The position numbers and the translations under genes are program-made. This document shows positions 36,786 to 38,101 of a DNA stretch of 38,101 nt, in pieces. The stretch spans positions 1 to 38,101 of the forward strand of contig WRHL01000008.1 of NCBI GenBank assembly GCA_009783245.1, read 5' to 3'. The DNA comes from Coriobacteriia bacterium (lineage in GTDB: Bacteria; Actinomycetota; Coriobacteriia; Coriobacteriales; UBA8131). The stretch's first letter is position 1, and every line of letters starts with the position of its first letter. The notes beneath the pieces are model-generated. The model had not been told where the DNA came from. It made no database searches and was given only the letters and a program-made list of their open reading frames with translations.

Positions 36786-36827
36786 CAGCCAAGGTTGGAA
36801 AAGAAAGGATGAGTGAGCTTGAGATCG

Positions 36828-37685
36828 ATGACTCAGATTCTTAGAGGTACAGAAGTCGCCGGAGCCCTGGGTAAAAGGACTGCCGAAAAGATAGAGGCGC
36901 TTGTCGCTTTAGGTGTGACACCTGCCCTGGCGACCCTGCGCGTGGGCGGGCGTGGTGATGATATCGCCTATGAGCGCGGCATATCCAGGCGTGCCGAAGG
37001 GCTGGGTGTCAGGGTCAGGAACCTTGTGCTTCCTGAGGAAGTGTCGCAAGAAGGACTCCAGCAGGAGATAAAGGCGCTTAACGTTGACCCAGAGATACAC
37101 GGGATCCTCCTGTTCAACCCCTTGCCCGCGCACCTGGACAGCCAGGCTGCGGCTGAGCTCCTTGCTGTGGAAAAGGATATCGATGGTATCTGCATGCTCT
37201 CCCATGCGGGGGTCTATACCGATAAGGACAGGGGATATCCGCCCTGTACGGCTTCTGCCTGCCTGGAGGTGCTCGACCACTACGGTATCGAGCTCGCTGG
37301 CAGGCATGCGGTTGTCATAGGCCGCAGCCTGGTTGTTGGCAAACCGTTGGCCATGATGCTCCTGCGGCGAAACGTCACAGTGACTGTCTGCCACTCGCAT
37401 ACGCGCAAACTCAAGGACCTTGTTAAGGCAGCCGACATTGTCATCGCCTGCGCAGGTCAGGCGAAGATGGTAGATGCCTCCTATCTGACAGAGGGGCAGA
37501 CCATCATCGATGTGGGGATCAACGTGGCTGAAGACGGGTCACTTGTGGGGGATGTAGATTATGAAGCCGCCCTGGATAAGGTGGCTGCCATAACGCCGGT
37601 GCCTGGCGGCATAGGCGCGGTAACCACCATGGTGCTGCTTGGCAACGTTGTCGACTCAGCCCTGAAAGCCACGGCTGTCCTCTAG
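36828..37685 (+). CDS. folD: FolD-family methylenetetrahydrofolate dehydrogenase
   Basis: This is a 285-residue cytoplasmic enzyme of the FolD family. Conserved parts are GILLFNPLPAHLD, KDIDG, the glycine-rich NAD(P) site VIGRSLVVGKPLAMMLL, CHSHT, IDVGIN, GDVD and ITPVPGGIGAVTT. By comparison with E. coli FolD (from memory), Tyr52 is kept as Tyr48. The catalytic Lys56 is Ile52 here, and the conserved Gln of the LVQLPLP motif is Phe. This suggests dehydrogenase activity without cyclohydrolase, as in a subgroup of anaerobe enzymes. The start is unsure: GTG 36813 is also in frame and nearer to AAGGA, while ATG 36828 gives the usual FolD N-terminus. It is the last gene of the exporter-side strand. 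Confidence 0.92.
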   Translation: MTQILRGTEVAGALGKRTAEKIEALVALGVTPALATLRVGGRGDDIAYERGISRRAEGLGVRVRNLVLPEEVSQEGLQQEIKALNVDPEIHGILLFNPLPAHLDSQAAAELLAVEKDIDGICMLSHAGVYTDKDRGYPPCTASACLEVLDHYGIELAGRHAVVIGRSLVVGKPLAMMLLRRNVTVTVCHSHTRKLKDLVKAADIVIACAGQAKMVDASYLTEGQTIIDVGINVAEDGSLVGDVDYEAALDKVAAITPVPGGIGAVTTMVLLGNVVDSALKATAVL

Positions 37686-37710
37686 GGGAGTGCGCTCCCA
37701 CTTGGGTTCA

Positions 37711-37734
37711 GCAGGCGCACGTGGGTGCGCCTGC
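37711..37734 (+). terminator. Perfect GC hairpin after folD
   Basis: The arms GCAGGCGCAC and GTGCGCCTGC (10 bp, perfect) enclose a GTGG loop, 26 bases after the folD stop. A weaker stem GGGAG/CTCCC lies just before it. No T-run follows, so termination would not be classical. Confidence 0.5.
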
Positions 37735-37744
37735 CCATAACATC

Positions 37745-38096
37745 CCGTCATTGCGAGCGCAGTGACAACTTGTGTAAAACTTCCGTCATTGCGAGCGGAG
37801 CCGCTAGAGGCGGCGCAGCGTGGCAACCTAGGGCATCAAGCTGCGGTTTTGGGCAGGGCGGCTGAAGTCTGCCTCCATCATACAGTTGATGCATCCACCT
37901 GCGATTCCGTCTACCTCCTCGCAATGACGGGAGTTGTGTGCAGGCCGTCAGCGCTCGCAATGACGGGAGTTGTGTGCAGGCCGTCAGGGCTCGCAATGAC
38001 GGGAGACGGGCTTCAGCCATCACCCACAAAACCGCACACGTGTCGGCTAGGTTGCCACGCTGCGCCGCCTTTGGCGGCTCTGCTCGCAATGACGGA
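37745..38096. repeat. Dispersed-repeat/MITE-like element with CGTCATTGCGAGCG ends
   Basis: The region after folD (37686-38101, 416 bases) has no gene. CCGTCATTGCGAGCG occurs at 37745-37759 and 37783-37797. Its reverse form (CTCGCAATGACGG core) occurs at 37918-37930, 37952-37966, 37989-38003 and 38082-38095. The outer arms 37782-37831 and 38047-38096 are inverted copies over 50 bases with about three mismatches. The similarity continues inward (TGCGGTTTTG and GGCTGAAG in both arms) to about 37871 and 38009. No transposase is present. It resembles the widespread non-coding palindromic repeat with GCAATGACG ends. Confidence 0.8.
37919..38003 (+). repeat. 36-bp tandem repeat inside the element
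   Basis: Two complete 36-base units start at 37919 and 37955 and differ by a single base near the end (GTCAGCGC versus GTCAGGGC). A third partial unit starts at 37991 and diverges after the shared 15 bases TCGCAATGACGGGAG. The units are contiguous, so this is a slippage-type expansion and not a spaced array. Confidence 0.8.
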
Positions 38097-38101
38097 GGGG
38101 T

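Follow-up and report, generated by a model that had tools for sequence, protein, structure and literature searches.

Rickettsia palindromic elements (RPEs), reportedly the subject of papers by Ogata, share one habit with the repeats described here: in the available portions of the sources, they insert in frame into unrelated conserved genes. They belong to another genome and consist of other units, and we liken them by description, not by sequence. GTAG REPs with their RAYT transposases are, like the repeats treated below, short dispersed palindromes located at gene ends and inside genes. The multi-phylum superfamily of CGTC-tagged REPs was surveyed by Di Nocera, De Gregorio and Rocco in 2013 (PMC3733652). 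In the parts of that survey available to us, the units have a stem of 8-9 bp, a loop of 4-5 nt and a short tail, mostly CCA; no dedicated transposase is known and no account of their spread is given. Predominance of HH dimers and rarity of clusters are presented there as a tendency, not as a rule. According to the same portions, RPE-6 and RPE-4 are identical with CGTC-1 and CGTC-4; RPEs are reviewed in PMC10969869. As far as the accessible text of the literature drawn on tells (PMC3733652, PMC10969869, PMC12306157), REPs inserted in frame into genes have been described before, in Rickettsia and in other species. A literature search by core sequence (with the 9-mer, among the matches listed) or for REPs in "Coriobacteri" returned nothing related.

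The window analysed here, the whole of contig C8 (38,101 bp), ends in a cluster of such palindromes. The final gene before it is folD (methylenetetrahydrofolate dehydrogenase/cyclohydrolase; 36813..37685, plus strand), an ORF with the Pfam domains THF_DHG_CYH and THF_DHG_CYH_C; the closest FolD match among 12 chosen genomes is that of an Oscillospiraceae genome (49%). The earlier note had counted six copies of a 13-15 base core in both orientations, and all of them are present: CGTCATTGCGAG occurs in six exact copies within 37746-38094, and GTCATTGCGAG is found exactly on the plus strand at 37747 and 37785 and on the minus strand at 37918, 37954, 37990 and 38083. Thirteen bases, CCGTCATTGCGAG, are common to all six, the full 15-base form to three. 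For comparison, a one-mismatch core search in 100 shuffles gave 0.72 sites on average and 3 at most. The large inverted repeat was likewise described correctly, its arms (37782-37831 and 38047-38096) being 50 nt long, 94% complementary and each provided with a GCCGC/GCGGC hairpin. The further inner homology noticed earlier consists of eight inverted pairs of smaller size, together with three copies of a 36-nt direct repeat, of which the third is just 69% alike.

In the cluster, two B units face opposite ways; truncated units precede them and also lie in the space that separates them. It starts with a truncated CGTC-REP unit serving as left module (37746..37783, plus strand), 38 nt ahead of the first full unit; this 38-nt arrangement recurs at C9 18550/18512 and C33 9224/9186. 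The first full core (37784..37828, plus) contains the CGTC tag, ATTGCGAG, an inner hairpin of 24 nt and GTGGCAACC. It is followed by right-hand module B (37829..37876, plus), delimited by alignment of 34 units with an approximate 3´ border and reading TAGGGCA...GGTTTTGGGC...GCGGCTGAAG..., and by left module L1 (37877..37917, plus), reading ACAGTTGATGCATCCACCTGCG.... L1 is joined to an inverted truncated core (37918..37929, minus) and this attachment probably marks a rearrangement junction. Two further truncated units, each a 36-nt repeat, occupy 37930..37965 and 37966..38001 on the minus strand. Then come module B of the second full unit (38002..38049, minus; border again approximate, from the unit alignment) and the second full core itself (38050..38094, minus), inverted with respect to the first and ending 7 nt from the contig end.

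Because the element touches the contig end, and the last 74 bp of the window recur at the end of contig C84 with 1 mismatch, one might suspect an assembly artefact, that is, a fold-back or a collapsed repeat. The two arms are not identical, however, and neither is the sequence adjoining each of them (GCAACCTAGGGCATCA and GCAACCTAGCCGACAC), an observation that speaks against a simple fold-back, and similar multi-unit clusters lie internally in contigs C9 and C33. We therefore regard an artefact as highly improbable.

The element was suggested in the earlier note to be a REP-type unit, and its core does fit the published CGTC-tagged REP superfamily. A lone copy without relatives, named there as the argument against a dispersed repeat, was looked for; instead, the CGTCATTGCGAG 12-mer is present in 112 dispersed exact copies in the window's genome (a 2.0-Mb draft), 47 forward and 65 reverse, and the reversed-pattern control gave 2. 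The 264,737 bp analysed around the copies cover 109 of the 112 cores, and these cores fall into 71 clusters. Under a relaxed rule, this DNA contains 81 full units and 32 other cores, mostly truncated, a few degenerate or cut by contig ends. In 297 genomes sampled from the order of the window's genome, itself included, the core is present in 83, and the highest counts in the 296 others are 23 (G237), 16 (G022) and 12 (G007). A separate search of 60 genomes for relatives found the core in 17, again with its own included. The whole 367-bp element, by comparison, was matched in 2 of 40 genomes, namely its own and G002, the latter by one 38-bp piece. A 14-mer scan of named genomes returned at least 116 stretches, the carriers among the matches listed including Chloroflexota, Bacteroidota, Omnitrophota and Oscillospiraceae; 97 of these at least 116 loci hold one or more full units, 181 in total among the matches listed. 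The core is thus widespread, and as 112 copies stand against no more than 23 in the 296 other genomes of the order, the window's genome is the outlier in abundance. The element is thus a dispersed repeat of the CGTC REP superfamily, of a kind already known and in an unusually expanded and modular form here.

A full core opens with CGTC-NTTGCGAG, continues with 14-34 nt of inner sequence and closes with GTGGCAATC or a close variant. The CGTC tag is found in all 81 full units, as the search rule itself prescribes. Unit ends read ATTGC..GCAAT in 50 of them; the remaining 31, among them the two full units of the window, end in GCAAC and have lost the first A-T pair. The outer ends pair over about 5 bp; further in, there follow an internal loop and 2-7 bp of inner stem. 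The tail is CTA in 71 own units, CCA in 8 and different in 2 (n=81), while elsewhere CCA was found in 135 of the 181 units of named loci (among the matches listed) and in all 25 units in relatives. Downstream, 44 units carry module A and 34 module B, and 3 were assigned to neither; sorting followed simple rules, and some B rows (C16_14620, C30_4591, C34_20602) align poorly. At 120 GYGGCAAYC sites outside the own genome (relatives' loci and named loci, among the matches listed) the module signature was found in none, by a search that is half-sensitive, as it detects just 41 of the 81 own units. A second covarying hairpin, sought in module B, is not supported: 4 or more consecutive pairs form in 13 of 30 units, and swapping gave a mean of 9.9 and a maximum of 17.

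Compared with the CGTC-tagged REPs, as far as the accessible portions of the survey describe them, the CGTC/TGTC tag, AT stem start, palindromic core, multi-phylum distribution, intragenic copies and, for the two transposase families searched here, absence of a linked transposase are common features. The family described here differs in its core of 35-55 nt, its very variable inner stem, the mostly CTA tail and modules A and B. Whereas predominant HH dimers and few clusters are reported there, here clusters are common and mostly of the same orientation, and inverted dimers are rare. Of 38 pairs of neighbouring cores within 300 bp, 35 have the same orientation and 3 are inverted. Further, 22 non-full cores have a full unit at most 120 bp downstream, and 14 of them sit 34-39 nt before it. 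Two composite elements of about 1.2 kb were also observed, at C9 17320-18562 (L063) and C33 8199-9353 (L080). They share about 700 bp at 88% identity and contain internal inverted repeats of 43 bp.

According to the earlier note, the element might also be a MITE moved by a transposase in trans. On this reading, it would derive from a transposon by deletion, keep the terminal inverted repeats and depend on a classical transposase encoded elsewhere. The large inverted repeat and the dispersed copies would suit such an origin, as would two inverted pairs of about 200 bp with a core at both ends (C13 27736-27936 and C14 32130-32334). The predominance of same-orientation neighbours just described, however, implies that inverted ends do not define the unit, and unit borders are not sharp. 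Neither a target duplication nor a transposition event was seen at the window cluster, and no strain-level empty site was seen for it among the relatives searched, which include no genome of the same genus. The genome-wide transposase search comprised two families, Y1 and IS110. It revealed a single Y1 (IS200-like) gene (L102 2253-3143, C32) whose own inverted repeats (32 nt, 97% alike) are unrelated to the core; no CGTC core lies in the surrounding 6 kb, and none was found at IS110 matches in the two loci examined. In contrast to GTAG REPs with their RAYTs, the tag here is CGTC and the sole Y1 transposase found has inverted repeats of its own, which makes it a TIRYT in the terms used in the available parts of PMC3733652. 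The seven ORFs of the long C9 and C33 elements had no Pfam transposase match, the sole weak match, to RMF, being below cut-off. Neither a core-flanked Y1 or IS110 transposase nor a transposase gene in C9/C33 is supported by these searches, and we consider the MITE explanation quite unlikely.

The most peculiar part of the unit is its inner hairpin. Among the 81 full units, 63 different inner sequences occur, many of which differ little from each other. In 37 of these 63, a perfect stem encloses a loop of 3-5 and measures 5 bp or more, and in 26 it stays below 5 bp; base shuffles gave 2.8 on average (max 8, 200 runs) and swapped halves 5.6 (max 12, 200 runs). The 5´ arms come in 24 different versions, some contained within others, and positions three to five of the stem, counted from the loop, show all four Watson-Crick pairs. 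Thus the arms vary and remain complementary in this genome. The effect is weaker in named loci, where among the matches listed 14 of 54 distinct inner sequences form the stem (swapped mean 3.6, max 9), and not clear in relatives (3 of 14; swapped mean 0.6, max 3). Truncated units share on average 3.9 nt with the arm of the next unit and 0.95 nt with other units (22 cases), a figure driven by two near-full tandem copies (C30, C92), without which it is 2.45. Template switching is able to create and maintain perfect stems, according to the available part of PMC8794818. Selection on RNA or on protein binding could equally maintain paired stems.

The latter possibility leads to another alternative, in which each copy is under selection as a structure, of RNA or DNA, that functions at gene ends, such as a terminator, an mRNA stabiliser or a supercoiling site. 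Complementarity of the inner stem agrees with it. So does the predicted fold, strong on both strands (z -13.8 and -9.5), although any sequence with a large inverted repeat is expected to fold in this manner. Of the folded RNA proposed in the earlier note, the strong fold thus stands (z -13.8), while no Rfam family reached its gathering score in the window and none is supported. The terminator proposed along with it is unsupported as well: 37500-38101 contains 0 sites with a GC-rich hairpin and a T run (shuffle mean 0.3). A convergent setting is probable if C84 continues the window, because the terminal gene of C84, which is RACo/AcsV-like, and folD would converge if the contigs join at the 74 bp that they share. 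The excess of clusters between convergent genes is, however, not significant (11 of the 38 clusters that were placed, compared with 26 out of 162 gene pairs in a baseline that includes the pairs bearing clusters; Fisher p 0.10). Moreover, 18 of the 71 clusters lie inside ORFs as placed by a crude gene finder. Selection on each copy as a gene-end structure is hence unlikely in our opinion. We rather think that the window cluster is probably a passive spacer between genes that would be convergent, with no dedicated regulatory task expected.

The same codon-usage gene finder, which is crude, placed the remaining clusters between same-direction genes (21), convergent genes (11), divergent genes (6) and at contig edges (15). 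Some of the 18 intra-ORF clusters are N-terminal extensions and possibly untranslated. Four in-frame copies have outside support: RsgA, PyrK, CopA and, probably, CobB. In RsgA (C10 7988), residues 227 and 306 flank the insert, which corresponds to 257-262 of PDB 6h4d, a structure in which the two flanks directly adjoin. Of 23 relatives with the gene, 22 contain both flanks, overlapping to 66 nt apart, so the site is empty or holds an unrelated short sequence; in the remaining one (G009) the gene is cut by the contig end. The sequence of this site was read in six relatives, and it contains neither the core nor GGGACSGTCCC in any of them. At the same loop, the RsgA proteins of G007 (L256) and G001 (L257) have short stretches of additional residues of their own, unrelated to the insert, and this suggests that the site tolerates additions. 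Extra residues coincide with the unit also in PyrK (C42), where residues 161 and 217 correspond to 146 and 153 of 5ksw, and in CopA, where 468 and 581 correspond to 655 and 669 of 8q73. In CobB, the alignment to NF002204 pairs residues 12-514 with positions 3-419, which leaves about 86 extra residues, not necessarily all at units. Pfam places further units after the first stretch of U32 peptidase and before MurJ. A HemA-like ORF (L088 1960-3030, C47) has a CGTC unit near its start, and its N-terminal domain match starts at profile position 74. Open-frame selection was not seen in intergenic copies: counts are near those of shuffles, the exceptions being one frame with 31 of 62 (shuffle max 30) and one with 0 of 62. 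Given that no frame is open as a rule in intergenic copies, those found in frame within genes probably represent survivors and not designed inserts.

Other palindromes accompany the CGTC clusters. GGGACSGTCCC, embedded in sequence resembling TGACAAAGGGGACGGTCCCTTTTGTCA, was counted at 158 sites in the genome (3 for the reversed control) and is present in the RsgA and PyrK inserts too. Sixteen of its sites are at most 300 bp from CGTC clusters (10 of 71 clusters), where an even spread would give 3.9. This proximity could stem in part from a preference for non-coding DNA common to both. A third palindrome, CCCCGGGTCAAGCCCGGGG, found for example near 8315 in C9 and near 9000 in C33, has 9 sites, 6 of them within 300 bp of CGTC clusters, a count biased by the fact that the DNA searched was centred on these clusters.

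Taken together, we propose that the element after folD is a composite CGTC-tagged REP cluster of two opposed full and four truncated units with side modules. It would belong to a non-autonomous family that spreads as small palindromic DNA and is tolerated between genes and in frame inside genes, its ends being kept and its inner hairpin often replaced yet complementary. We give this reading a probability of roughly three in four. The explanation we favour is that of a non-autonomous palindromic parasite with stems re-made by template switching. In such a scheme, hairpins would form in single-stranded DNA during replication, template switching might re-make one arm from the other, and slippage would produce local duplicates. 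Dispersal could be accomplished by an enzyme acting in trans or by recombination. A bolder idea is that the family propagates by structure and not by sequence: nothing but the ends and the palindromic shape would be recognised or maintained, inner arms would turn over quickly via template switching and copies would gain private paired stems. This is a tentative proposal, and we think it somewhat unlikely. If true, one genome would offer a natural record of hairpin re-making, inside as well as outside genes.

Less ordinary in this genome are the copy number, the side modules with same-orientation clusters, the variable paired hairpin and the insertions into housekeeping genes. A caution for annotators is that repeats can be the source of stretches like PSLRAEPPKAAQRGNL within conserved proteins. 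With many copies, variable stems and in-frame inserts in enzymes with known structures, the origin of the repeats, maintenance of their stems and tolerance of proteins towards them are testable in one lineage.
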